DNA from: a virus
IMG/VR virus record: IMGVR_UViG_3300017991_000085
Location: 26,698-90,697 of that record
Length of the DNA: 64,000 nt
Direction: 5' to 3' (one strand)
Shown: piece by piece, positions 25,984 through 45,450 of the stretch
Layout of the letters: each line of letters starts with the position of its first letter
How positions within the stretch are numbered: position 1 is the first letter of the stretch
Translations under genes and position numbers: made by a program
The notes under the pieces: model-generated
The model's input: the letters and a program-made list of their open reading frames with translations, nothing else
Databases searched by the model: none
What the model was told of the DNA's origin: nothing

Positions 25984-27450
25984 TTATGAACGCCCAATGT
26001 TCTTCACGATACAATTCTTGCGAGGTGTATACATATGAAGAGCACCGTACATCAGCTGCATCCATCGATAGTTCGTACCAAGCAATGCAAGGTCGATCTT
26101 CATCATGGTAAGAAGCTGTTTGAACGCAAAGTTGTCCTCGTTTACCTGCATGAGGTAAGCTTTGGACAAACCAGGCATACTAGCGTTGAAGTCAATATCC
26201 AAATCACGGAAGTCACCGTCACCAGCGTGGAAGTTTGCAGGCTTCACGCGGCCGATAAACTCATGATTGCTCGACCCAGCCTTGGGTGAGCGGAAGATAT
26301 TGAAATACTGAACACCACTCGGATTCGAACCCGGGAGAATATCCAGCACGACTTTGTCGCCAGCGGCCACGGTAACTGCCTTAGCAGCGCTTGCCAACGT
26401 TTCACCGTCGGAATACACTGCTGAACACTTATACTCGTAAGCGCCAACGTCAACAGCCGCAAACTGAGAACTACCAGAAGCCGGGCTGTTGTCGCCTGAG
26501 TTCGCATCCTGAAGGGTAGGGGCCGATTCAGCTGAAACGGCCGCAGCCAACGGAATACGACGAGGACGCTGGAACACGCCAGACTTAAGGTTGAAAGTAC
26601 CAGAACCGGAAACGAACTGCTTCACAACGTAACCAGCTTTTCCTTCCATACCGAGCGTATTGATGCGCTCCTTGGCATAGAAAGCACGACTGAAGTCACT
26701 GTGGGCTTTCGTATCCATATACATATCCGTGCACATACCGAAATTGTTGGCCTGAACGAGGGCTGCCTCTTCGAGGATTTCCTCATCCAAAACCTCTCCA
26801 CTCTGGAGATCATTTCGTTTGTCGAGGATGATGGTATCTGCGCCACTCAGCACATTGTAACCATCAAAGGCCTGAGCTTTAAACTCAGCCTGGCTCTCTT
26901 TGTCGCCAATCTGCTTATCAATACCGTCGAATTCGAGGCCATTGATTGAACTGTCGGCTGAAAAGAGGGCTCGCTCGAGCTGGGCCAGAATCCAAAGAGC
27001 ACCATTCTTGATCTCTCTCTGAACGATCGGACCATGAGCTTGCCTAACCAGCATAACGTCGTGGTTAATCTGTTTCTGAACGCCCATGTACTTGATCTGC
27101 ACCACGTTTCGGTCATAACCGGAATCCGCAGTTGCTGGAGCCGAGGCCATTGTGAAAAATGGAGGAATCTGGGCGCCATAACTGTTGTTCGTATTCGCTT
27201 GTTCAACCGTGTTGTATGCAGGAGTCTTCGGAATATCATTCCAAAGAAGCAGGTGCTTTTGTTCGTGGGTCACCACTCGGAGGGTCTTATCCAAAGATTC
27301 GACCTGGAGAGCGGGAGCACCTGTAAAATCACCCGGAAGAGTATCCGAATAATTTTGGCTTGCAAAGCTGAGGGCTTTGCTGATTTCTTCAAGAAGCTGG
27401 GGAGCATCAGCTCCAAAACCAGTCAATGAAGAAGGATTGCTATTTTGCAT
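25984..27450 (-). CDS. Major capsid protein
   Basis: 488 residues. Directly follows the prohead protease and scaffold genes. An N-terminal arm (LPGDFTGAPALQVESLDKTL) leads to the capsid core: VQIKYMGVQKQINHDVMLVR, ALWILAQLERALFS, and the C-terminal KIDLALLGTNYRWMQLMYGA. This is an HK97-fold pattern typical of larger phages. From ~residue 330 to 410 an Ig/FN3-like domain is inserted (AYEYKCSAVYSDGETLASA, then GVQYFNIFRSPKAGSS), likely exposed on the head. High GC and preferred codons fit high expression. Confidence 0.85.
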   Translation of the reverse strand: MQNSNPSSLTGFGADAPQLLEEISKALSFASQNYSDTLPGDFTGAPALQVESLDKTLRVVTHEQKHLLLWNDIPKTPAYNTVEQANTNNSYGAQIPPFFTMASAPATADSGYDRNVVQIKYMGVQKQINHDVMLVRQAHGPIVQREIKNGALWILAQLERALFSADSSINGLEFDGIDKQIGDKESQAEFKAQAFDGYNVLSGADTIILDKRNDLQSGEVLDEEILEEAALVQANNFGMCTDMYMDTKAHSDFSRAFYAKERINTLGMEGKAGYVVKQFVSGSGTFNLKSGVFQRPRRIPLAAAVSAESAPTLQDANSGDNSPASGSSQFAAVDVGAYEYKCSAVYSDGETLASAAKAVTVAAGDKVVLDILPGSNPSGVQYFNIFRSPKAGSSNHEFIGRVKPANFHAGDGDFRDLDIDFNASMPGLSKAYLMQVNEDNFAFKQLLTMMKIDLALLGTNYRWMQLMYGALHMYTPRKNCIVKNIGRS

Positions 27451-30170: not shown

Positions 30171-32126
30171 CTATTTCTTTCTGGCTTTTTCAATTTCCGC
30201 CTTTTTTAAGCTATGCTTAGCGTCCCAACGCCTAAGAAATTCCTTCTCACTGATGTTATACTTTGTTGGGTTCTTTTTCTTTGCCTCTTGAAACATCTTA
30301 AGAGCAACGCCACGATTACTAGCTATTCTCCCAGGCCCGCGATCGGCAAATGCCTGTCTTTGGATAGCTCTTGCTGACGTCCCTGGACCGGGCTTACGGC
30401 CGCTTCCAGGGCCCCCCTTTTCAAAAAGCTTGGCTCGCTGTTTCTTTTTCTCCTGTTCTTTCTTCCAGCTTTCTCCGGCTCTATATTCAGAAATCTTTTG
30501 TTTAGATTCTATTGCTCTATCAACCTTCTTTCCTTGATCTCGCGCTTGATTAAAATGACTGGTAGCTTTAACATTTTTTCCTTCTGCGACTGCACTGTGG
30601 AAATCGGCTAGATGCTCGTGATATTTTGCTTTCTCTTTAGCAATCCCGCTACCAGAAACAGGAGCTCCTCCCTCAGTGCGACTTGGCTTAGATCTCTTCT
30701 CAGCTGCTTCTGCTTCCTTTCTGTGAGCGGCAGCAGCGTCTTTATGATCCTCTTTCGACCAATCATGATGATAGCCTACTGTATACCCGCTGTGACCTTT
30801 ACCGTGTGAGGAATAAATAGGTTTGCCCGACTTCGTTCTTCCTATTACTTTTCCGCCTCTGGAGCCTTCTCCTGCTGCTTTATCGAGAGCTTCCGAAATC
30901 GCTTCAACGATTACGCTTTTAATGAAATGCTTCCTATCTTCTTTACGCGTAACAATTTTGGGCTTGAAATCTTCGCCAGGCTGGGCTTGATGATATTCAA
31001 CGCGAGAAACATGTTCTTGATATGGAATGTGTAAGCTATTAACTGCTTCTTTAAAACGATTTAAGTGCCCGGGAGTATGAAATGAGTCTCCATGCTCACT
31101 AATTATCTTTCCATGCTCATCTAAAAGTTTTTGAATTTTCTTGTACGTCTCGTTAGCATGGCTTTCGACAGCATCTCTACCTGGAGCATTATGTTCGCCC
31201 GCTCCTCGCTTTTTTCTTGGAGCCTTATCTTTTGCTCCCATGCGACGGGCCTTTTCGAGGACACTTAAAAGGGTCATTAAATTACTTTTTTTGACTCTTA
31301 CTGCGCCCGGTGAAGGGGCGGAGGAGGCGACATCCCCTATCACCGGTTGACTAGCCACTGAAGGACTAGCCAGGGAAGAATCTTCATCTGTATATCCTAA
31401 AAGCTCGCCATCCTCCGACTTAGCAAGGGTTGGATTATCGTCGTAAGTAGAAAGCTCTACTGCTTCACTGTCCTTTTTCTTTTTCTTCTTTTCGCCATCC
31501 TGAATTTTATCTGCCTGACTTGCGCCTTCGGCCTGAATCTTTTCTACCTCACCCTCTCCCACACTTTCAAGAATACAGGCCTTATCAATTTCTTCAATAG
31601 TATCTGAGCACTCATTAACTTCAAACCTCTCAACAGATAAAGATTTGGCAATCTCTGCATAAGTGCTTGTATTGACTGGATCAAGTGTTAAGGCGACTTT
31701 CTCCACTCTCGCCCTTGCAATAACGCTCTTATCAATATCGTCTCGTTTAACAATCTTTCCCTCAATTGACATTTGCACTCTGTTCTTATCTGCTTTCTTC
31801 AACGAGCGCATAATGTTATAGAAGGCCTGAGCGCGGGGTTGGTGCTTAAAAAGATAGCCCTCAACATACAACCCGTTCATTGTGTTTTGGGCATAATCGA
31901 TCTTACCGAGAACATTTTCTGGGCCCTTTTGATGGTCGTTATTAAAAAGTCCTTTTCCGTTTTTCAACGGACCAATATCGAGCCCCGACTGCTGAACCAC
32001 TTCACCTTGTAAATCCTTATCACCTGTGGAAGCAATTCCTTTAATGCGCCATTCGTCTTCGTTCTCGCCTTTGGCGAGCTCGACGGGCACAAAAAATTTG
32101 AAGGTGTCTTGGTCGCTTTTCCCCAT
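30171..32126 (-). CDS. Prohead protease with long fused extension
   Basis: 651 residues, about three times the usual size. The N-terminal ~165 residues are the protease: IKGIASTGDKDLQGEVV, His in FNNDHQKGPENVLG, Ser in NRVQMSIEGKIVKR and VEKVALTLDPVN. After an acidic/disordered linker come GRTKSGKPIYSSHGKG with a following KEDHKDAAAAHRKEAEAAE helix, GGPGSGRKPGPG and a basic end. Such modules are common in phage head fusions. It matures the head by cutting scaffold and capsid; the extension may be an internal head protein. Confidence 0.8.
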   Translation of the reverse strand: MGKSDQDTFKFFVPVELAKGENEDEWRIKGIASTGDKDLQGEVVQQSGLDIGPLKNGKGLFNNDHQKGPENVLGKIDYAQNTMNGLYVEGYLFKHQPRAQAFYNIMRSLKKADKNRVQMSIEGKIVKRDDIDKSVIARARVEKVALTLDPVNTSTYAEIAKSLSVERFEVNECSDTIEEIDKACILESVGEGEVEKIQAEGASQADKIQDGEKKKKKKDSEAVELSTYDDNPTLAKSEDGELLGYTDEDSSLASPSVASQPVIGDVASSAPSPGAVRVKKSNLMTLLSVLEKARRMGAKDKAPRKKRGAGEHNAPGRDAVESHANETYKKIQKLLDEHGKIISEHGDSFHTPGHLNRFKEAVNSLHIPYQEHVSRVEYHQAQPGEDFKPKIVTRKEDRKHFIKSVIVEAISEALDKAAGEGSRGGKVIGRTKSGKPIYSSHGKGHSGYTVGYHHDWSKEDHKDAAAAHRKEAEAAEKRSKPSRTEGGAPVSGSGIAKEKAKYHEHLADFHSAVAEGKNVKATSHFNQARDQGKKVDRAIESKQKISEYRAGESWKKEQEKKKQRAKLFEKGGPGSGRKPGPGTSARAIQRQAFADRGPGRIASNRGVALKMFQEAKKKNPTKYNISEKEFLRRWDAKHSLKKAEIEKARKK

Positions 32127-32172
32127 CGTTTCTCCAGATTTATGAACGGATTTGTAGAGTGGTCAATATTTA

Positions 32173-32210
32173 ATTATAGTATAACATGGGGTATTTTTTA
32201 AATTAAATTG
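32173..32210 (-). promoter_or_regulatory. Late-type promoter for the capsid operon
   Basis: On the minus strand CAATTTAATTTAAA (32210-32197), 18 bases, TATAAT (32178-32173). Same 14-mer and spacing as at 3818-3855. It begins 7 bases after the sigma-like gene and points into the prohead protease, scaffold and capsid genes. Confidence 0.6.
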
Positions 32211-32216
32211 TGCAAA

Positions 32217-32549
32217 TTAGTTATCACCAAACTCGCCTAGCTCTTTCATAATCTTGACAATCTGTGTCCGGAAGTTCTTCTTTGCCTCTTCCTCACGCAA
32301 AGCAATATTGTTGATCGATGTTGCCGTCAACTTGGCCACCTCTTCCAATGTATGTTCTCTTCCATTGTCCAACATATATTTGAAGAAGCAATAGTTGGCC
32401 TTTCGATCATCCACATACCAAACACACTCATTCTTGGCACAAGGTAGGACATTAAACCGGCCTGATTTCATCTTCTCAGCCTTCCGCCTTCCCATGCTAC
32501 AAACCCGAGTAGGATACTTATCCAGTTTTCGAGGACATCTCTGATCCAT
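32217..32549 (-). CDS. Cysteine-rich protein with sigma-region-4-like HTH
   Basis: 110 residues. The N-terminal half has five spaced cysteines (RCPRKLDKYPTRVCSMG, then LPCAKNECVWY), a probable zinc site. The C-terminal half, EHTLEEVAKLTATSINNIAL then REEEAKKNFR, aligns with the HTH of sigma-70 region 4, which reads -35 boxes. There is no region 2, so it is not a full sigma factor; it could be an accessory or late transcription activator. It lies directly before the capsid promoter. No Shine-Dalgarno is visible before its ATG. Confidence 0.55.
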   Translation of the reverse strand: MDQRCPRKLDKYPTRVCSMGRRKAEKMKSGRFNVLPCAKNECVWYVDDRKANYCFFKYMLDNGREHTLEEVAKLTATSINNIALREEEAKKNFRTQIVKIMKELGEFGDN

Positions 32550-32551
32550 TT

Positions 32552-32571
32552 GACAAAACCTATAATTTGTC
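32552..32571 (-). promoter_or_regulatory. Hairpin at the sigma-like gene start
   Basis: GACAAA/TTTGTC (6 bp, 8-base loop) ends 3 bases before the ATG at 32549. The leader (32550-32634) lacks a ribosome binding site and also has two CCACTAAT copies (32609-32616 and 32619-32626). Candidate operator or translational control site. Confidence 0.4.
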
Positions 32572-32634
32572 GGGAATTTATCTGGCCTATTTATGACACA
32601 TTAATAGACCACTAATGGCCACTAATATCAAGTA

Positions 32635-32907
32635 TTAATGACGGAGCCACCAAAATCTTTGCCCAGCTTCTTCATTTTGCATAACCCAGCGATCAAGAAC
32701 ATTTTCTCCATCACACTTCTCGCATACGAGAAAATTAATACAGCTTCTAGATACCGCATAAACCCAGCGCCAAACATCTCCTACCTCAAACCTATGACCA
32801 CACATATAACATCGAAAACCATCTCCACTCTCTCTCGGTCCCCATTTTGCTTGAACATCTTTTTCTGTTGCAACTCTAGGCTTCTGATCTACAAAGCTAG
32901 TAGTCAT
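32635..32907 (-). CDS. Zinc-ribbon protein
   Basis: 90 residues. FRCYMCGHRFEVGDVWRWVY and FLVCEKCDG give two CxxC knuckles. This form (CxxC-HxFxxGDxWR) recalls small phage proteins with a rubredoxin-like fold. Function unknown. Confidence 0.6.
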   Translation of the reverse strand: MTTSFVDQKPRVATEKDVQAKWGPRESGDGFRCYMCGHRFEVGDVWRWVYAVSRSCINFLVCEKCDGENVLDRWVMQNEEAGQRFWWLRH

Positions 32908-32924
32908 TTTTATCTCCTGTATAG

Positions 32925-33191
32925 CTACTCTGCAGCTGACTCTTCTTTTTTCTTCTTCTGTATAACGGGGTTTTCTTCGTTATAAATAGGCAAACAAGTT
33001 CTACACATCCAATATCGTTTATCTCTCGTTTTCCTCGTCTTTCTAGGTTTCCCACATCCATCACATTTGATATTGGCTATTGCACGTCTGCGATAGAATC
33101 TAATAAGCTCAAATGCTCCTTCTGCAGCTATTCCTGCAAAGAAGATTATCATAAACCATATGGTGTACTCTATCATAGATTCGGCCGGCAT
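32925..33191 (-). CDS. Membrane protein with zinc ribbon
   Basis: 88 residues. One N-terminal transmembrane helix (YTIWFMIIFFAGIAAEGAFE), then KCDGCGKPRKTRK and WMCRTCLPIY as a cytoplasmic zinc ribbon, and a charged tail. Unknown role at the membrane. Confidence 0.55.
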   Translation of the reverse strand: MPAESMIEYTIWFMIIFFAGIAAEGAFELIRFYRRRAIANIKCDGCGKPRKTRKTRDKRYWMCRTCLPIYNEENPVIQKKKKEESAAE

Positions 33192-33193
33192 TT

Positions 33194-33466
33194 TTATTTC
33201 TTGTAATCCTCTAAGATATGGCCTTTCGTTGCCAGGTAATCTGCAAAACCTGGATCTATTTGTCCAAGCACGTATACACTCCCTGACTCAGTTCGGGCTG
33301 TCAACCGCTCGGGGTCAAACTCTGTCACATTCGATGTAATGATTCGCTTTCCATTCTCAAAATTTGGATTCCCATGAACCTCCCCTGCAAGAGCCCTTCG
33401 CCACTGCTCGGGGGCCTTGTACGGATCACCAATTGACACTACAAATGACCAATTCTCTAACTTCAT
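33194..33466 (-). CDS. Hypothetical protein
   Basis: 90 residues, with KLENWSFVVSIGDPYKAPEQ and a middle beta region (RIITSNVTEFDPERLTART). I do not recognise the family. RBS AGGGGAAAAGG upstream. Confidence 0.5.
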   Translation of the reverse strand: MKLENWSFVVSIGDPYKAPEQWRRALAGEVHGNPNFENGKRIITSNVTEFDPERLTARTESGSVYVLGQIDPGFADYLATKGHILEDYKK

Positions 33467-33478
33467 CCTTTTCCCCTC

Positions 33479-33712
33479 CTAATACTTCTCCGGTAACGTG
33501 TCAAGCTCTGGGCTACAGCCACAGCACTGCGTATCCCCACTTAAGGCAAGATCTGTCTTTTCTGACAAATTCCTGAGAAATTCAATCAACCCTTTCTTAT
33601 TAAATTCCAGATCAGCGAGCTCTCCATTATTATAATGAGCTTTAACTAGCCCCTGTTCAATGGCCCAGTCCCAAATGTTCTGCCCTTCATCTTTTTTATA
33701 CTTGTTTGTCAT
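33479..33712 (-). CDS. Small hypothetical protein
   Basis: 77 residues from MTNKYKKDEGQNIWDWAIEQ; AAGGAG lies 8 bases upstream, which favours this ATG over one 63 bases earlier. The C-terminus has CCGCSPELD, a possible metal site. Unknown function. Confidence 0.5.
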   Translation of the reverse strand: MTNKYKKDEGQNIWDWAIEQGLVKAHYNNGELADLEFNKKGLIEFLRNLSEKTDLALSGDTQCCGCSPELDTLPEKY

Positions 33713-33908
33713 CGTCTTTCTCCTTATCATCAAAAGACTCTTGATACGAAATATGAGCAACATGAACGCCTTCACTATAGAACGTTTTAACGCTTCCTAT
33801 CACAGCTCCTTTTATCTCAAGAATTTCTACAATTGCCCGCTCCAGCCTATCTTCAAATCCAATATCGTGCTCATCTCTTACAACTTTAATTCTAAAAACG
33901 CGTGTCAT
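33696..33908 (-). CDS. Small protein, Cse60-like
   Basis: 70 residues. FRIKVVRDEHDIGFEDRLER then VAHISYQESFDD gives a beta-alpha-beta layout like short Cse60-like proteins. Start overlaps the metallopeptidase stop. Weak family call. Confidence 0.45.
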   Translation of the reverse strand: MTRVFRIKVVRDEHDIGFEDRLERAIVEILEIKGAVIGSVKTFYSEGVHVAHISYQESFDDKEKDDDKQV

Positions 33909-34576
33909 TTTTCCACTCTCCTCTTATCGATCTTCTCTAAAATCTTACTTTTATCCTCGCAATATTTGTCCCAGTGTTTGTCACATAGACCTATCTTTCC
34001 AAGCTCCGGTACCATTACCCAACATTCCAGCTGCATCTTACAATACTTAACACTACACCTCAGATCTTTATCTTCATAATCTTGAAAAAAGCCTTTTTGA
34101 GCAGTGCCAGCAAATTCTGCTTCAATGTTTTGCCTATACAATTCTGCCGCTCCCTCCAGCGCATATCCTCTTTCATATTTGTACTTTCCCTCGTATGCTC
34201 TCTCCATCAACTGTTCCCCAACCTTGTCAACATATCTCTCCGCTCTTAATCCAATTTGTTTTGCTACATCATATGTCAAAGATCTGTTATGATACCGAGC
34301 AAACTTTCTATCTAACTTACACTGCCAGTGTCCAAGCTCATGGAACAGGTGATTTAAAAATCGCTCTACATTCGTAAAACGACCCTTAGAGTCTCTCATG
34401 CTAATTTTGATTTCTTTTGTCTCCAGATTGATCATAGCACCGCCGCATGTCGTCCAATCAAAGATCAATCCCAGCCCGCTTCTCAAAGCGATATCGATTC
34501 CTTTAGCTACATCTGGATGTTTCAAAAATCTATTCACAATCCACCTTTGTGAATCCGCCCGTAAAACTAATCGCAT
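33905..34576 (-). CDS. Zinc metallopeptidase-like protein
   Basis: 223 residues. The zincin motif is in FLNHLFHELGHWQCKLDRKF (HExGH, ~residue 80), preceded by strand EIKISMRDSKGRFTNVERF. A second metal site lies at the C-terminus (CSVKYCKMQLEC, then LCDKHWDKYC). A cytoplasmic peptidase of unknown target. Its first residues overlap the PilZ gene by 47 bases, so they are probably co-translated. Confidence 0.65.
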   Translation of the reverse strand: MRLVLRADSQRWIVNRFLKHPDVAKGIDIALRSGLGLIFDWTTCGGAMINLETKEIKISMRDSKGRFTNVERFLNHLFHELGHWQCKLDRKFARYHNRSLTYDVAKQIGLRAERYVDKVGEQLMERAYEGKYKYERGYALEGAAELYRQNIEAEFAGTAQKGFFQDYEDKDLRCSVKYCKMQLECWVMVPELGKIGLCDKHWDKYCEDKSKILEKIDKRRVEK

Positions 34577-34892
34577 ATCCGAGGCGGCGATCTCTTTCTT
34601 TCCTTTTCCAGTTAACTCTCCTCACCTCTCCATATACTCTAAACGTGCTAGGTCCATACCAATTAGGATGCTTCAGTTTGACAAAAAGAACAACCTCCGC
34701 TCGAGGCCTAATCTTAATCTGATCCTCTTCTTTCACAATGATAAAGCAACCGCCAACGTTAAAATCATATACCGACCCCTTAGCAACTATCGTTCTAGTT
34801 TCCATATCCATCATTGCTGCATTACTGCCAAGGAAGGTGAGAAGTCTGGGTTTCTTTCTTTTCTCTTCTTTATTTTCCATCCTCTGTTCCAC
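34530..34892 (-). CDS. PilZ-like c-di-GMP receptor candidate
   Basis: 120 residues, GTG start with AAAGG 6 bases upstream. Features of PilZ domains in order: basic RKKPR (RxxxR, residues 12-16), strand and turn VYDFNVGGCFIIV (DxNxxG, a near match to D/NxSxxG with Asn for Ser), ENEEVVLFVKLKH-like strand, then YGEVRRVNWKRKERDRRLGY and AISFTG, the usual closing strands. PilZ proteins bind c-di-GMP through the two motifs. A diguanylate cyclase gene lies upstream in the same unit. Binding is inferred. Confidence 0.65.
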   Translation of the reverse strand: MEQRMENKEEKRKKPRLLTFLGSNAAMMDMETRTIVAKGSVYDFNVGGCFIIVKEEDQIKIRPRAEVVLFVKLKHPNWYGPSTFRVYGEVRRVNWKRKERDRRLGYAISFTGGFTKVDCE

Positions 34893-34912
34893 TTTAAACC
34901 TTTACCTCTCTA

Positions 34913-35275
34913 TTATACATCATCATCATATCTTTGTCTGGTTATCCAACTAGCTACTTTTGAGATTATCTTTTCCATGGCGCCCGATTCGTGACAAACC
35001 AACTCTAAGTAATAATCATGGTGATATTCTTTCAAGTCACTAATGATCATAAAAAGACTAAAATAAGGATCAGGCTCTTCTGCTTCTAACTCATAATAGT
35101 ACAAAATATCAAGAGCATCAATGATCGGAAGAGACATCAGATCGGCGATATAAGACTGTCTGTCTTTTTGCAAGATCTCTTGAACCTCTCCAATCATCCG
35201 CTCAAGTTTCCTCTCTTTATAAGTCCTGAGATCAGTTACTGGTTTTTTCGGATCCATGCCTGTAATTCCATTCAC
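34913..35275 (-). CDS. Helical hypothetical protein
   Basis: 120 residues, all helical, acidic (MSLPIIDALDILYYYELEAE, then FSLFMIISDLKEYHHDYYLE). It ends in DDDV with a stop that is part of TGTATAATA. Lies between the GGDEF and PilZ genes. Start could be the internal MDPKKPV. Not recognised. Confidence 0.5.
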   Translation of the reverse strand: MNGITGMDPKKPVTDLRTYKERKLERMIGEVQEILQKDRQSYIADLMSLPIIDALDILYYYELEAEEPDPYFSLFMIISDLKEYHHDYYLELVCHESGAMEKIISKVASWITRQRYDDDV

Positions 35276-35927
35276 GCTTAACCGCAGCCAAAAACTCTTT
35301 CACCGTTTGCCAGCGGGTCATTTCTCTGCCGGATGTTTTCACAAAATAAACGGGATAATGAATATAAATCTGATATAGATTATCAAAATAAGCATAAATT
35401 TTGTAGGGACCTTCATAAAACCAAGTATTATACCACTTCCACTCGGTTTTTCCTGGTGTTAGAATTCCACAATAAGCAAGGTAATCCAAAACTCTTTCTT
35501 CTCGAACTTTTTGCATCTCCTCTCTCACTTCCTCATACGGCCTATCACCAAACAATTCAGGAGTAGCTGTGCTCCAAACCGGTTTTCGATTTTTCATCTT
35601 CTCTTTGTGCTTTTTAGACATTTCTTTTTCATCCGCAACTTCAAAAGGAAAAACTCTTAAATCGTGCTCATAATAGATCTCGATGTCTGAGCCAACGAGC
35701 TCAGCAATTTTTCCTAACCAATTACGATCTTTATCCAGATCGACATCTCCATACCAAACGACCTCGCCATCGACTACTACATTTGAATTATAAACTGCCA
35801 TTGCCGGCCCTCGACTTTTCGATGCGCTCACAAGACGCCCCGGACGACCGAGAAGAATACTCAAAATTGCTCCAGGGTCTTTATCTGAACACAGAGCTTG
35901 AATCTTTTTTTTAATTTTTGTTCCCAT
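35232..35927 (-). CDS. Hypothetical protein
   Basis: 231 residues. A basic N-terminus (TKIKKKIQALCSDKDPGAIL), then an alpha/beta body with YKIYAYFDNLYQIYIHYPVY and the ending WQTVKEFLAAVKREWNYRHG. I do not recognise a family. It is in the GGDEF-PilZ unit. Confidence 0.5.
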   Translation of the reverse strand: MGTKIKKKIQALCSDKDPGAILSILLGRPGRLVSASKSRGPAMAVYNSNVVVDGEVVWYGDVDLDKDRNWLGKIAELVGSDIEIYYEHDLRVFPFEVADEKEMSKKHKEKMKNRKPVWSTATPELFGDRPYEEVREEMQKVREERVLDYLAYCGILTPGKTEWKWYNTWFYEGPYKIYAYFDNLYQIYIHYPVYFVKTSGREMTRWQTVKEFLAAVKREWNYRHGSEKTSN

Positions 35928-36120
35928 TTTTTCTCTCCTCTATTTCGTTAAGCCGACATAACCAAGTAAACAGCTTAGCAATTCGACATTCATAAAGAGC
36001 TATCCGCTCTAAATTTCCTGGTCTAGCTCTTTCAAGCGGATCCCAGAAAAGCTTATTTATTTTTTCTTGAAGCTGGTCTCGTTTTCTTATTACCATTGCT
36101 TTCATTGGATGAATGTACAT
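35911..36120 (-). CDS. Small helical basic protein
   Basis: 69 residues, basic and helical (RKRDQLQEKINKLFWDPLER, then RIALYECRIAKLFTWLCRLN). Its first third overlaps the end of the GGDEF gene by 68 bases. No family recognised. Confidence 0.45.
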   Translation of the reverse strand: MYIHPMKAMVIRKRDQLQEKINKLFWDPLERARPGNLERIALYECRIAKLFTWLCRLNEIEERKNGNKN

Positions 36121-36748
36121 GTCTAATCACCCCATGGCCATAGCCTTCATGGCTAAAATCCATAATTGTAGTAAATACTAATGAATCTTTTTTTTCTTTA
36201 GCGATATACATGCCCCGATCAGCCGCTGTAATTAGCTCTTCTGCTTTGTCTCCTTTACTATATGATACAACCCCCATACTGGCCGTAACCTTAATTGAAT
36301 CATACTTAAACCTCATTTTCCTGTGGAGACGTTCGTAAAAATCAGCTGCTTTGTTAGGAGATTTGTTTAAGCTAATCACAACAAATTCTTCTCCTCCCCA
36401 GCGAAATGCCTTATCATAGGATCGAGTTTGCTGACGTAAAGTTTCTCCTACTTTTTTAAGAATTTTATCTCCTACTGCATGCCCATGAGTGTCGTTGATC
36501 TGTTTAAAGTTGTCCAAATCAATAAAACCAAGAGATAAAACTCCACCAATCCGATCGCATTGGTTGGTCAACTCTTCAAAATACCTATAGAAAGACTTGC
36601 GATGATGCAAACCTGTAAGCTCATCGCAAAAACTAATGCCAAATTTTTCTAGAAAATCAATGAGTTTTGTGGCGAGAATGAGCGAACAATCGTTTTTGTG
36701 CTCATCGATAAATAGAGTCAGTTCGCCTGTGAAATTGTCCTTTTTCAT
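36053..36748 (-). CDS. Diguanylate cyclase (GGDEF domain)
   Basis: 231 residues. Makes c-di-GMP from two GTP. All key parts are visible: DELTGLHHRKSFY (~residue 42), FIDLDNFKQINDTHGHAVGD (~75), RWGGEEF as the active site (~117), and TASMGVV near 150. The inhibitory site RSYD (RxxD) lies exactly five residues before GGEEF, so product inhibition is expected. Only ~40 residues precede the domain, with no sensor or membrane segment, so the protein is cytoplasmic. It stands first behind a strong promoter. A phage c-di-GMP synthase is unusual. Confidence 0.92.
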   Translation of the reverse strand: MKKDNFTGELTLFIDEHKNDCSLILATKLIDFLEKFGISFCDELTGLHHRKSFYRYFEELTNQCDRIGGVLSLGFIDLDNFKQINDTHGHAVGDKILKKVGETLRQQTRSYDKAFRWGGEEFVVISLNKSPNKAADFYERLHRKMRFKYDSIKVTASMGVVSYSKGDKAEELITAADRGMYIAKEKKDSLVFTTIMDFSHEGYGHGVIRHVHSSNESNGNKKTRPASRKNK

Positions 36749-36761
36749 AGCTCCTACTTAT

Positions 36762-36790
36762 ATTATAGTAGACCTCTATCAAAAAGGCAA
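36762..36790 (-). promoter_or_regulatory. Canonical sigma-70 promoter for the GGDEF gene
   Basis: On the minus strand TTGCCT (36790-36785), 17-base spacer, TATAAT (36767-36762) followed by ATAAG, then AGTAGGAGC and the GGDEF ATG. Nearly the same as the promoter at 21298. Confidence 0.75.
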
Positions 36791-36819
36791 GCTAAATTTT
36801 TATGAGAGATTCCAACAGG

Positions 36820-37014
36820 TTACACTAAACTTAGAAAATCCCCCTCAGAAATCTTCTTTCCTGCTGCTAATCTCTCTAAATACTGGGCAGCTAACGTTCC
36901 GATTTTTACGTTATTTTCTACCCAATGATAATCATCAACCTTGCGAAAAACGCGTTTTCGAGTCCCATTGCTTGTAACTTGCTTAATGACTATCACCAAG
37001 CCTCCTTCCATCAA
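36820..37014 (-). CDS. Small hypothetical protein
   Basis: 64 residues, strand-rich N-terminus (GGLVIVIKQVTSNGTRKRVF) then a helix (KIGTLAAQYLERLAAGKKIS). ATGA overlap with the next upstream gene. Unknown. Confidence 0.5.
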   Translation of the reverse strand: MMEGGLVIVIKQVTSNGTRKRVFRKVDDYHWVENNVKIGTLAAQYLERLAAGKKISEGDFLSLV

Positions 37015-37304
37015 CAGTCCTTCTTATTTCTTGTATCAAAATAGTTTAAAATTCTATCATAAACAATCTCTTTCTCTTTCTCTAGTAGGCTTTGTCGTCT
37101 TATAAATTCATCGCTTGTTCGTCTATAATATTCGATCAAACTCTTAGTCAATCTATCACTAAGATCTGCTAACTGAATCATCTTAATGGAAGGGCTTTGG
37201 CCTTCGGCTGTAAGAAGCCCGTTCCTCTGAGCGGACAGTTTCTCAATTCGTCTAATTATATCTGAGATCTCTCTTAAGTAATTCTCATACAGAGGAATCA
37301 TCAT
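37011..37304 (-). CDS. Coiled-coil hypothetical protein
   Basis: 97 residues, helical (NYLREISDIIRRIEKLSAQR, then SDRLTKSLIEYYRRTSDEFI). Overlaps the upstream gene by 20 bases. Not recognised. Confidence 0.5.
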   Translation of the reverse strand: MMIPLYENYLREISDIIRRIEKLSAQRNGLLTAEGQSPSIKMIQLADLSDRLTKSLIEYYRRTSDEFIRRQSLLEKEKEIVYDRILNYFDTRNKKDC

Positions 37305-37485
37305 CCGGGTCCTCTAATCTCACAACAGGTTTCAACTCATGAAGGCCCTTCTCGCTAAACAACGTTACGAGATAAATATCGTCGTATTTGACAACCGCTT
37401 CTTCAGCTTCTTCTTTAGTTGTAAACAATAAATAATGCGGATCTTTCTTAAAAATCACACAATAATGAAATTTTTCTTGCTTCAT
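37285..37485 (-). CDS. Small hypothetical protein
   Basis: 66 residues, strand-turn-helix-strand pattern (FHYCVIFKKDPHYLLFTTKE, then EAVVKYDDIYLVTLFSEKG). ATGA overlap with the protease gene upstream. Not recognised. Confidence 0.5.
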   Translation of the reverse strand: MKQEKFHYCVIFKKDPHYLLFTTKEEAEEAVVKYDDIYLVTLFSEKGLHELKPVVRLEDPDDDSSV

Positions 37486-38312
37486 TTGTTTTCTTCCAAA
37501 AATTTAACAATCTCCTTGTGGACAATCATCCACCCAATACTCGTAGGAGATTGATAGTTTCCAAAAAGACCGGCAAAAACCAAACCGGACAGCTCTCCCT
37601 TATCATTAAAGACTCCCGACCCGCTATTGCCTGGATAAATGGGAGCCGAAATTAGTCGCGCTTCCGAACCAAGAACTTCAGCATAGCTTCCGACCCTTCC
37701 TTCGGCGACAGAGCCAAAAATTCCAAGAGGATTTCCGACAACAAAGATCTGATCTCCAAACTTAACTGGCTCTTTAGCAATCTTAACAGGGGTAAGTTTT
37801 TTTCCCTGCGAAACCACTTTTAACAAACACAAATCTGCTAATGACGATTTTCTATGAACTTTTGCATATAGATAGCTTGTATGTTCGGGGCTCTTAAGAG
37901 CCAAACGAAAGAACGTGCCAGGGGCTCTTTTATTAGCCGCCATATCGCAGACATGATTATTTGTTAACACTAGATCGGGACTAATTGCAACCCCCGTACC
38001 AAAACCAACATTTGTCATCTCTACTCTCACAAACCCTGCCGATGGTTTATCAAGATATCCTTTTGTCGTACTTTCGGGCCCTTTAGTAGGAAACTTAATA
38101 GTATTCCTTTGAGGAATCATATTTCTGCCAACAGGATGTTGTAATGTTATTCCTTTTACAGTATGATTAACAGGAGTAGAGAGGGTCGAACGATCAATAA
38201 ATTCGTCCAATTTAACAATTGTAGCGACATTTAATAGAAACATCGCCACCCCCGCAGCCAAATAAAAAACCACCAGTCCGATATTAAGAATTCGCGCAAT
38301 TTTACTCAACAT
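37482..38312 (-). CDS. Membrane-anchored trypsin-like serine protease
   Basis: 276 residues from MLSKIARILNIG; AAGGAG lies 8 bases before this ATG, inside the end of clpP. One transmembrane helix (IGLVVFYLAAGVAMFLL), a linker, then the protease: His in VLTNNHVCDM, Asp in SSLADLCLLKV and Ser in YPGNSGSGVF, the DegP/HtrA-like S1C triad. No PDZ domain. The catalytic part would be periplasmic. Located beside ClpP and chaperone-like genes. It could cleave envelope proteins or digest entry barriers. Confidence 0.85.
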   Translation of the reverse strand: MLSKIARILNIGLVVFYLAAGVAMFLLNVATIVKLDEFIDRSTLSTPVNHTVKGITLQHPVGRNMIPQRNTIKFPTKGPESTTKGYLDKPSAGFVRVEMTNVGFGTGVAISPDLVLTNNHVCDMAANKRAPGTFFRLALKSPEHTSYLYAKVHRKSSLADLCLLKVVSQGKKLTPVKIAKEPVKFGDQIFVVGNPLGIFGSVAEGRVGSYAEVLGSEARLISAPIYPGNSGSGVFNDKGELSGLVFAGLFGNYQSPTSIGWMIVHKEIVKFLEENK

Positions 38313-39171
38313 TTGTATCTCCTTCTTGATTTTCTTTTTTCTCATTACTTTCTTCCCCAGCAATCTGACTCAATACTTCTTCAGTGTTATCAAACTCTTT
38401 TTGTAAAGGCTCATACTCTTCTTTTTTAATCTCAACTGTGATCTCTCCTCCTGCAGGAATGCTAATCCTGTCACATAGAGCCTTGTATAGCTTTTTCAGC
38501 TCGCTTGGTTTGGGAAGATTATCAAAGGTCCTTTTTCTCGGTCCTTTTCGGTAATTCCCTCTTTTTCGATATTCAACAATCTCATCTATTAGCCCTAACT
38601 CGAGCGCTTCCTCTGCCGAAATAAAAATATCTTTTCCGGTACTAGTCAACCTATCATAAAATTTCTTATCGGGATATGAATTATCGGCATAAACTTGATT
38701 CAATTTTGACTGAATCCTTTGCTCTTCCTCTTGATATATTTTTTGATCCGCTAGCGTTCTGCAACCTGGGTCATTAGCTCCCTCATGTAACAGGACCCTT
38801 GTAAGCTTAGACAAATATCTTTCATCGCAACAGCACATAATCCATGTAGCAGAGCTTCCTACGTGGCCTTTCCCATAAAATACAAACTTACAGCGAGTTT
38901 CTTGAATAGTGTCATGAAGAGCCATCATTGACTCTGCGCATCCGCCATAAGAATTCATATAAATAGTGATTGGTTTGCTACTCATCTCCTCCATGAGATG
39001 AATTCCCATAATAGCTACTTTAACTGAATCCTGATCAAAAGCGTTATAGCTGACTTCTTCGTCGTCAGGCTCTTTATCCGTTGGTTTACCAAAATAGATT
39101 TTTCTATGAATAACATCCACACCCCATTTCATTAGATTGTCAAGCCAGTCAGCGTCTTTTCTTGTAGACAT
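38302..39171 (-). CDS. clpP: ClpP-family serine protease
   Basis: 289 residues, longer than usual ClpP (~200). Core: ITIYMNSYGGCAESMMALHD, the catalytic Ser in GHVGSSATWIM, His in RVLLHEGAND and Asp in STGKDIFISAEEALELGLID. The extra ~80 C-terminal residues are acidic and unstructured. ClpP works with an AAA+ unfoldase; none is encoded here, so it may use the host ClpX or ClpA. Phage ClpP-like proteins can also serve as head proteases, but the phage has a separate prohead protease. The trypsin-like protease gene overlaps its end. Confidence 0.85.
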   Translation of the reverse strand: MSTRKDADWLDNLMKWGVDVIHRKIYFGKPTDKEPDDEEVSYNAFDQDSVKVAIMGIHLMEEMSSKPITIYMNSYGGCAESMMALHDTIQETRCKFVFYGKGHVGSSATWIMCCCDERYLSKLTRVLLHEGANDPGCRTLADQKIYQEEEQRIQSKLNQVYADNSYPDKKFYDRLTSTGKDIFISAEEALELGLIDEIVEYRKRGNYRKGPRKRTFDNLPKPSELKKLYKALCDRISIPAGGEITVEIKKEEYEPLQKEFDNTEEVLSQIAGEESNEKKENQEGDTNVE

Positions 39172-39179
39172 AACGCCTC

Positions 39180-40502
39180 CTATTTCTTGTGTTCTAGCTC
39201 TAAATCATAAATTGGAATGATTTTATCTAACTCCTTGTTATTATCTACTTCTTTACTAAACTGAACTCGCCTAATATCTCCGCATGGATGTTTTTTTGTA
39301 GACTCCACGATTGTCTGAGATGAAATAGCGTAGTTGATACTTAGTGAGCTTGCAAACGGATCTATTCCGGATAATGTCGAATTAACAACAACATCGATTC
39401 CATTTTGTGTTTTAGCTTTTAGCTCCTGGTGAACGTGCCCTGCAAGAACGCCAGCAATAGGAGGATTCCCCTTTTTAATTTCTCCAGTATTAAATGACTC
39501 TATTTGATGTGTAAGGGCTTTAAAATTAATTGACTTCCCGGGAGCAGAAATAGCTGAAAATACCGTATCTCCGTGAACACCTATCAGACGACCACCAATC
39601 GTATCAATCATCACATACTGTGTTTTAGGAATAACGAATTTAACCCGACCAGCAAAAATCAACGATAGGGCATAATAAACGGGATTAATTACGCTATCAT
39701 ATTTTTGTTGGTTAACTCTATTTCCGCCCTCTCTACGAAATGGCCAGTCTTCATGATTGCCAGGAATACCATAGAATACAATCTCATCAAAAAAATTCAA
39801 AAGATACGAAATCATATGAAACAAAACATGTAGGGCCCCGTTCATTTGATGAACAATAAGATCAGTATCAATTCCCGTCTTGTTATGAATCTTACCATGA
39901 TTAATATCGCCTAAAGAGGCTAAGTGAAGTTTTTTGGTGGCTGCCCTATGGGCAAGTTTATAGTTAGCAATTTCCTGGGCAAAGAATGCGCATCTCCTGC
40001 AGCCCTCTGTCCATCCAAAACTATTTGAATTCCCGACTTCATTACTATCGACCTTGAGACCAAGATGCCAGTCTGAAAACGGAGCAACCAACTCTCTTTT
40101 TTCTACAGTAGGGGCTTGAATCTTTTTAAGAAATCCTTTTATTTCTTTCTTATTAAGAACAACCGGACTTAACTTAAGATTTTTGATTGACTTGGCAAAC
40201 TCTTCGGTCAAATAGGCCATTTCATAATCTTCAAGAATATTTTTTCTTTGAATTGAGCGTGCAAGACTCCTATATTTATTTGCAACAATTGTTTCTGATG
40301 TTTTAAGAGTCTCTCCCAAATCAACCGCTTCTTCAAAAGCGACGTTCCATCCTCCGAAGAATTTTCTGATTAAATGGTCTGATAAACCGGCTGAAACAAA
40401 CTCTGTCTTCGTTGGCCGAGATCCTTTCAACTTATGTAAAGCAACTATCTTCTCTAGAATTTCTTTTTTGAGCTCTTTATTGCTTTTTTTCTTCATCCTC
40501 AT
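39180..40502 (-). CDS. Metallophosphoesterase with homing-endonuclease-associated repeat
   Basis: 440 residues. The N-terminus (residues ~15-60: ILEKIVALHKLKGSRPTKTE, then IRKFFGGWNVAFEEA) is a DNA-binding repeat of the HNH_repeat type usually seen with homing enzymes. The C-terminal ~300 residues are a calcineurin-like phosphoesterase: SDWHLGLKV, LGDINHG, GIPGNHEDW and LAGHVHQE. The enzyme may cut phosphodiester bonds in DNA or nucleotides, directed by the N-terminal domain. An odd fusion; the substrate is unknown. Confidence 0.75.
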   Translation of the reverse strand: MRMKKKSNKELKKEILEKIVALHKLKGSRPTKTEFVSAGLSDHLIRKFFGGWNVAFEEAVDLGETLKTSETIVANKYRSLARSIQRKNILEDYEMAYLTEEFAKSIKNLKLSPVVLNKKEIKGFLKKIQAPTVEKRELVAPFSDWHLGLKVDSNEVGNSNSFGWTEGCRRCAFFAQEIANYKLAHRAATKKLHLASLGDINHGKIHNKTGIDTDLIVHQMNGALHVLFHMISYLLNFFDEIVFYGIPGNHEDWPFRREGGNRVNQQKYDSVINPVYYALSLIFAGRVKFVIPKTQYVMIDTIGGRLIGVHGDTVFSAISAPGKSINFKALTHQIESFNTGEIKKGNPPIAGVLAGHVHQELKAKTQNGIDVVVNSTLSGIDPFASSLSINYAISSQTIVESTKKHPCGDIRRVQFSKEVDNNKELDKIIPIYDLELEHKK

Positions 40503-40782
40503 CTCCGCAATAATTAAAAATGATATTATCTGGCCTCATAGCCAGATAATCCTTGCCTTCTATATTAATTGTGTAAATTTTAAATTCATCGAGCTCAGCA
40601 AAGCAGACTCTTTTTCCCATAAGCTTAGAAATAGCTTCTTTAGGTTGTATGAATCCCGACACCTTTACAATCGTCCCTTCGTTGTTGTTTTGCTCTTTAG
40701 GCATAATAAGCCCTTTTTGCTCAGGGGCTTTATCTTTCTCAATAATAAGCCATCCATTCCAGACATCAATATTATTTAGCAT
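40477..40782 (-). CDS. GroES-like co-chaperonin
   Basis: 101 residues. The beta-barrel pattern matches Cpn10/GroES: WNGWLIIEKDKAPEQKGLIM, then EGTIVKVSGFIQPKEA, GKRVCFAELDEFKIY and YLAMRPDNIIF. The mobile loop equivalent lies near residue 28. Phage GroES homologues (like T4 gp31) fit a larger capsid into GroEL. It stands next to an FKBP-type protein and proteases. Called from pattern, not from strong identity. Confidence 0.7.
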   Translation of the reverse strand: MLNNIDVWNGWLIIEKDKAPEQKGLIMPKEQNNNEGTIVKVSGFIQPKEAISKLMGKRVCFAELDEFKIYTINIEGKDYLAMRPDNIIFNYCGDEDEEKKQ

Positions 40783-41596
40783 CTTCCTTCTCCTGCTTTA
40801 CGCGAATATTAAGAACTTCAACATCAAAATCAACTTCTTTTCCCGCCAACTGTTCGTCTGCGTAATCTTCAGGAAAAACAACATGAATTACTCCAGGCTT
40901 ATTCTTTTCTGCACCAATAAGGGCCTGTTCAAACCCTTCAAAAACCTGCCCGGCTCCGACCTGAATCAGCTCATTATCGTTAGATCCTCCCTCAAACTCA
41001 ACGCCGTCAAGTTTGCCCACATATTTTAGATTAACAATGTCCCCCTCTTCAACGGGACGATCGACTTCAACCAAATTAAGCTTTTCATTGACCTGCTTTT
41101 CAATTTCTCTCATCTTATCTTTTTGAAGATCGTTGATTTTATCAACCAAAGCCTTCTTTTCTTTTTTCTCGCTTTCTTCAAGATCTTCAACAGACATACA
41201 CTTTTCTGGATTAAGACTAAGCAAGATTTCTTTCACCCAAGCCATCTCTCGGACCAGATATTCTTGAGTCCCTGCAATTTGCAAAGTAAGATCCGCAACA
41301 GCTCTGTTCAGCTTAGTTGTGTTTTCCGATACATAGCTGGTAGTATTAGCAATAATCTTCCTAAAATTCATATCCATTTGAAGAACATCATTACCTAAAG
41401 CCTGAACGATAGCTTGAAGTCGTGCAACGGGGATAACAACAGCTTTATCTCTATATCCTTTAGCAAGAGGCTCGTTTTTTGCTCCAGCTTTTTGAAACCC
41501 GCTCTGCTTCACATTCTGTTCGGCTTCATCGGCGGCCTTATCGTGACTCTCTTTCATTTGCTCAGCTTCCTTTTTGAGCGCTTCTTCATTTGTCAT
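40772..41596 (-). CDS. FKBP/trigger-factor-like peptidyl-prolyl isomerase
   Basis: 274 residues. Residues ~1-165 are helical and coiled. The last ~95 residues match the FKBP domain of trigger factor: EEGDIVNLKYVGKLDGVEFE, VGAGQVFEGFEQALIGAE, VVFPEDYADEQLAGKEVDFD and VEVLNI. It catalyses proline cis-trans change and holds unfolded chains. The helical N-terminus may bind clients or a virion protein. Overlaps the GroES-like gene. Confidence 0.8.
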   Translation of the reverse strand: MTNEEALKKEAEQMKESHDKAADEAEQNVKQSGFQKAGAKNEPLAKGYRDKAVVIPVARLQAIVQALGNDVLQMDMNFRKIIANTTSYVSENTTKLNRAVADLTLQIAGTQEYLVREMAWVKEILLSLNPEKCMSVEDLEESEKKEKKALVDKINDLQKDKMREIEKQVNEKLNLVEVDRPVEEGDIVNLKYVGKLDGVEFEGGSNDNELIQVGAGQVFEGFEQALIGAEKNKPGVIHVVFPEDYADEQLAGKEVDFDVEVLNIRVKQEKEDAK

Positions 41597-41607
41597 GGAG
41601 ATTCCTC

Positions 41608-42024
41608 CTACTTAATATTTTTGTTATCTTCTTCTGTTTTATTTTCAACTGAATAATTGTTCTTTTGTCTGTCCATATTAACGCGCCATTTCTGCATATA
41701 AAGATCGTAAAGCTTATCTGCATCAATTCCATTTGATGTGCAAATGTCGAGCATAAAAAATAGCAAATCTGCAATTTCAACATTGATATTCTGTTTTTGA
41801 GATTCCAGCAGAGCAAAACGATTTTCTCTTCCTTCCTTACTCCACCACTTCCAAGCATAGCAATCTTGAAGCTCAGATAACTCTTGTCGAAGAGCTTGAA
41901 TCAAATCAATAGTCCACTTACCGACTTCATTAGGAGATAGGTCTTTTAGCATGTCGGTTCCGCGACCAATTGCTAATCTGAGCTGTTTCTGTTTATCAAA
42001 AATATCTTTCAATTTGTCACTCAT
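41608..42024 (-). CDS. MazG-like/dimeric dUTPase-type pyrophosphatase
   Basis: 138 residues, all helical. ALRQELSELQDCYAWKWWSK and NVEIADLLFFMLDICTSNG supply the ExxE...ExxD metal-binding pairs of the dimeric dUTPase (DUTPase_2) and MazG group. Such enzymes remove pyrophosphate from dUTP or other NTPs, keeping uracil out of phage DNA. Lies at the edge of the head-gene block. Confidence 0.7.
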   Translation of the reverse strand: MSDKLKDIFDKQKQLRLAIGRGTDMLKDLSPNEVGKWTIDLIQALRQELSELQDCYAWKWWSKEGRENRFALLESQKQNINVEIADLLFFMLDICTSNGIDADKLYDLYMQKWRVNMDRQKNNYSVENKTEEDNKNIK

Positions 42025-42509
42025 TTAACTTCGCTCTCCTCAACGACTGTTTTTTGACCGTTAGGAAATTTAACAACTATCTTCCCATTTCGCCTGGCCA
42101 TAATTTTGACTTTTTGATTATTGTAGATTCCCTCTCCAATTCCGTCTCTCAAAGTCTGTCCTAGAACACCAGCAAAACCATCCTTGGGAGACTCAGGGAG
42201 AGAGGTTTCTTTCTCGGAAGATCCAATATTACTCAACACTCTGCTGGCCAAATGTTTTAAAGCAGAAACCTCTTGCTCAGTAAACAAAATTTCAATTTGT
42301 TGAGCGCTAGAAGTGGTTCTATCAGTATCAATTTCTTCAATGCGCCTATTGGCATAATCTTGAATTTCATTTGACACTTGCTCTTTAATCTCTTTTGGAA
42401 ATTGCTTACCATTAAACTTAATAGAAAGAGACTTAAAAGCTTGAATTAATTGAAGTTTTGTGCGTAACTTATTAAGAGTAATCTCTGACTTGAGTTGTTC
42501 TTGCGACAT
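42021..42509 (-). CDS. Hypothetical protein with C-terminal beta domain
   Basis: 162 residues. Helical N-terminal ~115 residues (TLNKLRTKLQLIQAFKSLSI, then TEQEVSALKHLASRVLSNI); the last ~30 (NQKVKIMARRNGKIVVKFPN) form an SH3-like strand set. It starts after the TGTATAATG sequence at 42534-42526. By position a minor head or portal-accessory protein. Not recognised. Confidence 0.5.
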   Translation of the reverse strand: MSQEQLKSEITLNKLRTKLQLIQAFKSLSIKFNGKQFPKEIKEQVSNEIQDYANRRIEEIDTDRTTSSAQQIEILFTEQEVSALKHLASRVLSNIGSSEKETSLPESPKDGFAGVLGQTLRDGIGEGIYNNQKVKIMARRNGKIVVKFPNGQKTVVEESEVK

Positions 42510-42534
42510 GTTTGCCTCCTGTCTTCATTATACA

Positions 42535-43434
42535 TTATCGCTTACGTTGATGATGATAATGTATATAATCGGGGCCAACATATTCCATTTTGTCTTTTTC
42601 GGTGAAGCCCCAACCTTTTGGTAGTTCAACCAATCTATCTCTACAATTTGGATGAGTTGATCCAACCACTGGCTTCCACTCCGAAGCCTTCCTCCCATAA
42701 TTTGTCCCATTTCTCATGAGATCGGTGAGCCGATATATTTTCGGAGTCCCGTCGGGATTAACATAAAACTTTCTACAATAAGCGCAAAGAGCGGCGTCTC
42801 TAACAACCAACTTATAGACGTATGTTTCTTCGAGTTCTTGTTTCCCTTTATTTCTTTTTACAATAGCGTCCGCTGCCCCATAAGATTGAGCGTTATTCAT
42901 TTCAGTAACTGCTACTCTACTCCAATCTCGCGCGAAGTCCCCAGTAGCTTCCCTCAGGTCTTTAACAATCTCTTGAATCTTCTTATCTTCCTCTATCGCG
43001 GTAACAAAAGCCGGCCTAATCCCTTCAGTCTGAATTATATTTCTGTATTCAAAATTTCCATCTCGAATTAGCCCTTCAACTTTTTGCTGAAACTGAGAGG
43101 ACAGCTTTTGAACTGTCTGAGCCACGTTCTCTTTCACATGATCAACGGCATGTTTTTCAATATCACTAAGAGAAGGCTTTGGTTCTCTAATCTTCCAATC
43201 CTCGTGATCTACTGGGCCATACTCATACCCTTGAACGTTTCCTCGGGTCATCCCAGTTTTATAAGAATCAGCGATATAATCTTCATTTTTAGCAGTATCA
43301 AATCCTAGATCCTTTAACTCCTTAATTTCTTCATCAGATAGTTGATCGGGCCCTAGAGTACTTAGAATAAAATAATTATGTCTTATCCTAATTCTCTCTT
43401 TAATGGCTTCAATTTTTGATTTATCAACAATCAT
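42535..43434 (-). CDS. MuF-like minor head protein
   Basis: 299 residues. A helical N-terminal part leads to RDWSRVAVTEMNNAQSYGAA, then DAALCAYCRKFYVN and, at the end, VGSTHPNCRDRLVELPKGWG; this CxxC...HPNCR pattern is the phage Mu gpF/SPP1 gp7 head-morphogenesis domain. It enters the procapsid with the portal and is found next to it, as here. Confidence 0.75.
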   Translation of the reverse strand: MIVDKSKIEAIKERIRIRHNYFILSTLGPDQLSDEEIKELKDLGFDTAKNEDYIADSYKTGMTRGNVQGYEYGPVDHEDWKIREPKPSLSDIEKHAVDHVKENVAQTVQKLSSQFQQKVEGLIRDGNFEYRNIIQTEGIRPAFVTAIEEDKKIQEIVKDLREATGDFARDWSRVAVTEMNNAQSYGAADAIVKRNKGKQELEETYVYKLVVRDAALCAYCRKFYVNPDGTPKIYRLTDLMRNGTNYGRKASEWKPVVGSTHPNCRDRLVELPKGWGFTEKDKMEYVGPDYIHYHHQRKR

Positions 43435-45376: not shown

Positions 45377-45408
45377 ATCTAATCTCCAATCCTTGTGTAT
45401 AATCTATC

Positions 45409-45440
45409 ATTATAGCGGAATTCCATACAACTTTAAATTA
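45409..45440 (-). promoter_or_regulatory. Late-type promoter for the portal operon
   Basis: On the minus strand TAATTTAAA (45440-45432), 17-base spacer, TATAAT (45414-45409), then the portal ribosome binding site. Same layout as 3818, 11907 and 32173. Confidence 0.55.
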
Positions 45441-45450
45441 TTCAACCATG

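Follow-up and report, generated by a model that had tools for sequence, protein, structure and literature searches.

Diguanylate cyclases, which make cyclic diguanosine monophosphate (c-di-GMP), have until now been listed in phages as auxiliary genes with guessed roles. The passages concerned of one study present viral diguanylate cyclases as auxiliary genes of Mu-like viruses in the Cariaco Basin (PMC7785012), and the relevant part of another interprets HD-GYP enzymes of jumbo phages as counter-defence (PMC7824862). For the cultured Bacillus phage SP-15, a search of the main text of its paper returns no mention of PilZ or c-di-GMP, and the cyclase is marked in a figure legend (PMC5977210). 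In the open-access literature, with most subscription papers outside its scope, none of the matches listed concerns a phage cyclase accompanied by a PilZ protein. Here we analyze a 64,000-nucleotide stretch of viral DNA (the window; bases 26,698-90,697 of the 90.7-kb virus record IMGVR_UViG_3300017991_000085, here G000) that carries a predicted diguanylate cyclase, the writer, and a PilZ-domain protein that is probably its reader. The pair had been proposed from the letters of the sequence alone (the original prediction), and its two open reading frames (ORFs) are as follows:

36053-36748, minus strand: diguanylate cyclase with a short N-terminus and one GGDEF domain (Pfam, NCBIfam, residues)
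34530-34892, minus strand: PilZ-domain protein, probable reader, with RKKPR and DFNVGG (profiles, hhalign, AlphaFold model)

The first of these ORFs (231 aa) is clearly that of a diguanylate cyclase with intact catalytic residues, and its product is predicted to make c-di-GMP. It scores 132.5 bits with the Pfam GGDEF model (PF00990; cut-off 23.8) and 141.2 bits with NCBIfam TIGR00254, and matches 55 distinct solved sequences at E ≤ 0.001. GGEEF occupies residues 118-122, and the residues for binding metal and guanine (D77, N85 and D94, with Asn and Asp contacting the base) are invariant across SP-15, phage G and two viral loci described below, L142 and L152; the residues were assigned by PleD positions, D344 among them. 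The inhibitory site (I-site) is likewise intact, with RxxD placed five residues ahead of GGEEF (RSYD-KAFRW-GGEEF), the spacing of an I-site. Both the GGEEF and the RxxD of the original prediction are thus confirmed. The position that governs GTP selectivity holds Asp (D94), and Asp at the position that distinguishes GTP from ATP is described, in the part of the source concerned, as a mark of strict c-di-GMP makers (PMC9140294). Because of this residue, a Hypr (cGAMP-type) cyclase was rejected. About 38 residues precede the domain and contain no recognized sensor; DUF7763 reaches only 14.4 bits there against a cut-off of 27.

The second ORF encodes a single short domain of 120 aa from a GTG start. 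A profile that we built from 27 PilZ sequences of 20 bacterial genomes scores this protein at 22.9 bits (E 5e-9 for one comparison), a value reached by none of 20,000 shuffled sequences (18,372 reported, top 15.5 bits). When the same profile is run against 245 stop-to-stop frames of the phage, ORF 34530-34892 ranks first and the runner-up scores 6.2 bits. Alignment of profiles with hhalign gives 94.8% to PilZ and 0.08% to a GGDEF profile used as control. A single sequence yields no usable fold in AlphaFold (predicted local distance difference test, pLDDT, 47), and an alignment of seven sequences (window, its near-identical twin, L142, three prophage-like loci and a fragment from L008) gives a model of moderate quality (pLDDT 72; predicted template-modeling score 0.63). 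Six of the seven best Protein Data Bank chains found with Foldseek are PilZ or BcsA structures. VIA-align places MotI/DgrA best (Z 10.4, root-mean-square deviation 3.2 over 97 residues), followed among PilZ proteins by BcsA (Z 9.7), YcgR (9.1) and Alg44 (8.9), and the first flavin-binding barrel, from another split-barrel family, at Z 8.2. With moderate confidence, the model suggests that the protein adopts the six-stranded barrel of the PilZ fold, as had been anticipated.

The RxxxR that precedes the barrel is present (R12-KKP-R16) and aligns with the R..R columns of the profile. The ligand motif reads DFNVGG, with Asn for the Ser of (D/N)xSxxG, and for this reason we do not file the protein as a canonical c-di-GMP binder. 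Since RxxxR is kept while the Ser of DxSxxG is replaced by Asn, binding of c-di-GMP is likely but not secure. Both motifs, RxxxR and DxNxxG, are those originally reported. Searches by simpler means add little: PHROG and NCBIfam contain no match for the protein, phmmer against solved structures returns one chance match only, and tblastn against phages three. No row named PilZ appears among the 50 matches listed for the model in a viral fold library, and BLAST detects no similarity between the PilZ proteins of the window and of L142.

Pairs of writer and reader are not unique to this phage. Judged by domain matches, they also occur in SP-15, in L142 and in the prophage-like loci L351, L353 and L354, so that the search for the pair in other phages, proposed with the original prediction, recovered it several times. 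Among the best 80 GGDEF-bearing viral loci, PilZ lies within the fetched stretch in at least four (the twin, L351, L353 and L354), and HD-GYP in one (L359). Genes for MASE1-PAS-GGDEF, globin and PilZ proteins stand in a row in L351 (8675-11478), the PilZ proteins of L353 and L354 being nearly identical to that of L351; the L351 record has an integrase, its tail-type genes were recognized by eye only, and the locus is here called prophage-like. GGDEF matches are found in 132 phage records, and the surroundings were inspected for four of them (SP-15, phage G, vB_EcoS-683R6 and MD-2021a). The last two are not counted as phage cases, given the chromosome-type genes around the GGDEF match.

Relatives of the window were gathered as the best 80 loci by capsid and the best 80 by portal, some from one contig, and our own GGDEF profile was run on 158 of these 160 loci (L138-L295), on the window and on three known loci. 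Besides the twin, seven of the 158 scanned loci bear GGDEF (L142, L152, L148, L289, L293, L287 and L281), and detection of PilZ among the scanned loci is confined to L142, the window and the twin. When Pfam is applied to 50 chosen whole records, PilZ is found in one, the L142 record, and the PilZ of the twin is missed; with the record of the window added, HD_5 has a match in one of the 51 records and EAL in none. All other records were covered through their fetched loci.

The part of these results likely to be most surprising to specialists is L142, a diverged relative of 11.8 kb whose capsid is 42% identical. Its genes for PilZ, REC-GGDEF and HD-GYP proteins stand in a row (L142:1357-3787) that adjoins the genes for head protease and capsid and runs on the other strand from the latter. 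The PilZ protein scores 27.8 bits and has a canonical DISLNG, the REC-GGDEF protein scores 41.1 and 124.6 bits for its two domains, and the HD-GYP protein scores 96.3 bits (HHEYYNGHGYPNGL). These matches make the row a possible complete c-di-GMP circuit, with input (REC), writer, reader and eraser.

L148 and L152 carry GGDEF genes (79.5 and 94.5 bits) in which the beginning of the domain is missing. These genes lie upstream of the head protease and, again, on the other strand from the capsid gene; no PilZ was detected in either locus, and integrases occur in the records. The distance from the GGDEF gene to the capsid gene is 4-9 kb in the window, L142, L148 and L152. Also upstream of the GGDEF/PilZ genes is a class IV aminotransferase gene (L142:4407-5282 by Pfam; L148:6586-7545 and L152:6353-7243 by eye), and L142, L148 and L152 have in addition a common gene of 109-112 aa in this position. 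In L289, a GGDEF-like gene (13139-14446) directly follows a large ORF that resembles a prohead protease by eye, and in L281 (15913-17148), L287 (16904-18130) and L293 (8343-11924) such a gene lies downstream of the portal gene. L281 and L287 have Asn in place of the selectivity Asp, and the domain may therefore have lost activity. A divergent GGDEF-like family is seen in the head-gene region of Myxococcus phage Mx1 (OR576727:17173-17904) and of the Mx1-like phages L281, L287, L289 and L293.

Proteins encoded in the window include a terminase, a portal protein, a head protease, a SPO1-type capsid protein, SbcCD-like and UvsX-like proteins and a DnaE-like polymerase, so that the DNA is that of a tailed phage. 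The head and packaging genes are:

25984-27450, minus strand: major capsid protein, SPO1 type (phrog_752, 223 bits)
30171-32126, minus strand: head maturation protease (phrog_1028, 126.9 bits)
43652-45376, minus strand: portal protein (phrog_12, 145.5 bits)
45451-47346, minus strand: terminase large subunit (phrog_5653, 42.7 bits; Mx1 terminase 29% over 83%)

Bacterial contamination was rejected because these genes flank the cassette on its own strand. The twin (G001, IMGVR_UViG_3300018080_000123, 113.6 kb) is practically identical to the record, with a 100% match over the 2.6-kb cassette. Neither the record nor the twin yielded a tyrosine integrase. The writer-reader pair sits inside a gap of about 11.5 kb between the portal and head protease genes (32127-43651). 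In SPO1, LysYB1 and vB_EalM-132, 76-78 bases separate the portal from the prohead protease that comes after it. The same gap holds genes for an HtrA-like protease (37482-38363), a ClpP-like protein (38302-39171) and an exonuclease-like protein (39180-40502). The first of these, HtrA/trypsin-like, matches the PADLOC models RT-Protease_XI (44 bits) and Avs1b (23 bits), perhaps through mere shared trypsin-likeness. The region 43652-47346 is a mosaic in which the terminase is nearest to Mx1 (29%) and the portal protein to SPO1-type phages (37-40%).

Around and between the two genes lie the following elements:

36762-36790, minus strand: promoter-like TTGCCT-17-TATAAT, 10/12 consensus matches, ending 14 nt before the cyclase ATG
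35911-36120, minus strand: ORF of 69 aa overlapping the end of the cyclase gene, no Pfam match up to E 1
35232-35927, minus strand: ORF of 231 aa, no Pfam match
34913-35275, minus strand: ORF of 120 aa, no Pfam match up to E 1
34912-34940, minus strand: promoter-like CAGACA-17-TATAAT, 10/12 matches, ending 20 nt before the GTG of the PilZ-like gene
33905-34576, minus strand: probable zincin metallopeptidase with HELGH (WLM and MPTase-PolyVal matches below cut-off)

The promoter claimed ahead of the cyclase gene is therefore found. TATAAT sites with a -35 box of at least four matches number 10 on the gene strand and 1 on the other, and 7 of the 10 precede a gene start by no more than 60 nt, against an expected 0.84; gene starts for this count were picked by hand from the ORF list. 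The seven well-placed sites include those of the cyclase, PilZ-like, portal and head protease genes. With promoter-like sites before both, the cyclase and PilZ-like genes may each be read from a promoter of their own. The single transcription unit originally proposed is not assured, as the PilZ-like gene has its own promoter-like site. The reported gene order needs correction: three ORFs (69, 231 and 120 aa) separate the pair, and the peptidase gene instead follows the PilZ-like gene, overlapping its end by 47 bases. The statement that the window lacks a phosphodiesterase is supported and can be extended, as neither EAL nor HD-GYP (HD_5) has a match in the 90.7-kb record or the 113.6-kb twin.

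With regard to origin, the best 80 bacterial relatives listed for the cyclase share no more than 42% identity with it and are spread over many phyla. On the best tree of 87 GGDEF domains, the phage sequences fall in five places and need five changes. A single origin is not rejected by the approximately unbiased (AU) test (p-AU 0.24 for four head-linked rows and 0.254 for eight), and we therefore do not claim separate acquisitions.

The explanation that we favor, at somewhat below an even chance, is that the phage raises c-di-GMP and relays the signal through its own receptor to the motility or surface machinery of the host. A cyclase without a known sensor domain, expressed from its own promoter, would raise c-di-GMP in the infected cell, its output being limited by its own inhibitory site. 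The single-domain PilZ protein of the phage would take up c-di-GMP and then dock on a host machine. YcgR, MotI/DgrA and the PilZ domain of BcsA are receptors that, once loaded, act on the flagellar motor or polysaccharide apparatus, and by analogy the most likely docking target would be the flagellar motor or the apparatus for surface polysaccharide or adhesion. The infected cell might in this way be kept sessile and in matrix until lysis, presumably to the benefit of the phage.

Several observations weigh against this explanation. No dimerizing domain is recognized in the cyclase, although GGDEF domains act as dimers. The Pfam PilZ model (PF07238) scores the reader at only 14.4 bits (E 0.05, residues 11-110), below its cut-off of 22.5, and a search of the whole record with this model did not pick up the ORF; the homology therefore rests on the other profile methods. 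The best Foldseek matches of the model all have E above 0.009, no match reaches E 0.001, and the model is not independent proof of a PilZ fold because known PilZ proteins were inside its alignment. The motif [DN]xSxxG occurs in 23 of the 27 reference PilZ sequences and [DN]xNxxG in none of the 27. GGDEF is patchy among relatives, being present in 4 of the 50 chosen whole records, one of which is the twin. Finally, motility or matrix as the target is a guess. Overall, the recurrence of the pair argues against pure accident, and its patchiness argues against an essential role.

That same patchiness would be expected if the two were passenger genes, captured from a host and retained by chance while bringing the phage little or no advantage, and the absence of a close bacterial source among the best 80 listed, together with the five places of phage GGDEF domains in the tree, has been counted in favor of this view. 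We nonetheless regard it as unlikely. The catalytic residues are intact, promoter-like sites precede both genes, and the pair is present in several separate phage groups. In addition, a sister contig with a capsid 93% identical (G003), which starts within the PilZ-like gene, retains 24 of the final 33 residues of its product.

Improbable as well is a circuit internal to the phage, in which c-di-GMP made by the phage would be read by its PilZ protein to set the timing of its late genes, of lysis or of packaging. The genes of writer and reader fit within 2.3 kb among the head genes, a promoter-like site preceding each, and L142 carries input, writer, reader and eraser in one row, as such a circuit would have it. 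However, the 120-aa PilZ protein has no added DNA-binding domain, and no c-di-GMP riboswitch is found in the window, where only a tRNA reached the Rfam gathering score. The relatives L148 and L152 moreover have GGDEF with no detected PilZ.

We give still less credence to counter-defence, whereby the pair would disturb cyclic-nucleotide defence signaling of the host, either through a flood of c-di-GMP or through sequestration of a defence nucleotide by the PilZ protein. This proposal draws on the published interpretation of the jumbo-phage enzymes, as given in the passages concerned (PMC7824862), and on the HD-GYP gene beside GGDEF and PilZ in L142. Against it, the selectivity residue of the cyclase is the Asp seen in strict c-di-GMP makers, making more of a signal is the opposite of removing it, and neither the cyclase nor the PilZ protein has a PADLOC match. 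Very unlikely, lastly, is a head-linked role, in which the GGDEF protein would be produced together with head proteins and perhaps be packaged and injected, so as to act immediately in the new host. Although GGDEF-like genes lie between prohead protease and capsid genes in Mx1, after the protease-like ORF (by eye) in L289 and downstream of portal in L281, L287 and L293, and within 4-9 kb of the capsid gene in the window, L142, L148 and L152, the strand is opposite to that of the capsid gene in the last three, activity may be lost in L281 and L287 with their Asn for the selectivity Asp, and there is no sign of packaging.

A broader proposal, which we regard as doubtful, would be that in one lineage of tailed phages, marked by SPO1-type capsids, a c-di-GMP hub is maintained next to the head genes, ranging from a lone GGDEF to writer plus reader, as in the present phage, and, in L142, to writer, reader and eraser with REC. 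Were this so, such phages would possess a whole second-messenger circuit that they tune themselves, and not a stray host enzyme. A phage with its own likely receptor, together with the L142 row, makes deliberate use of c-di-GMP by phages directly testable.

How far the pair resembles known systems differs from case to case. The Cariaco Basin cyclase is similarly phage-borne and has a predicted promoter, but belongs to Mu-like viruses, and the passages concerned mention no receptor (PMC7785012). The jumbo-phage HD-GYP enzymes are phage-borne cyclic-dinucleotide phosphodiesterases like that of L142, but are read as counter-defence, and PilZ is absent from the main text of that paper in the part concerned (PMC7824862). 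The predicted fold of the phage reader is that of YcgR, MotI/DgrA, Alg44 and BcsA, but the protein differs from these in consisting of one short domain and in carrying Asn instead of Ser in the ligand motif. Mx1, a distant relative (terminase and portal 29%, capsid 24%), has a gene annotated as "nucleotide cyclase" (OR576727, 17173-17904) between its portal and capsid genes, ahead of the latter and one gene past the annotated prohead protease; in contrast to the window, its GGDEF is divergent (39.2 bits) and its record has no PilZ match. Bacillus phage G, also cultured, has a GGDEF protein (gp350, 155.5 bits) but no PilZ match in its 497-kb record. A Listeria phage, LIS04 (OQ999172, 139245-139463), encodes a protein 44% identical to the SP-15 PilZ protein over 62% of the latter. 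SP-15 itself (KT624200) carries both a GGDEF protein (SP15_150, 130.9 bits) and a PilZ protein (SP15_170, 31.3 bits), each annotated in its record by Pfam match. Its pair differs from that of the window in being about 15 kb apart, with the cyclase amid sugar-synthesis genes and a canonical DISATG in the PilZ protein, and as a cultured phage whose record names Bacillus subtilis as host, SP-15 offers a laboratory model for a phage-borne writer and reader.

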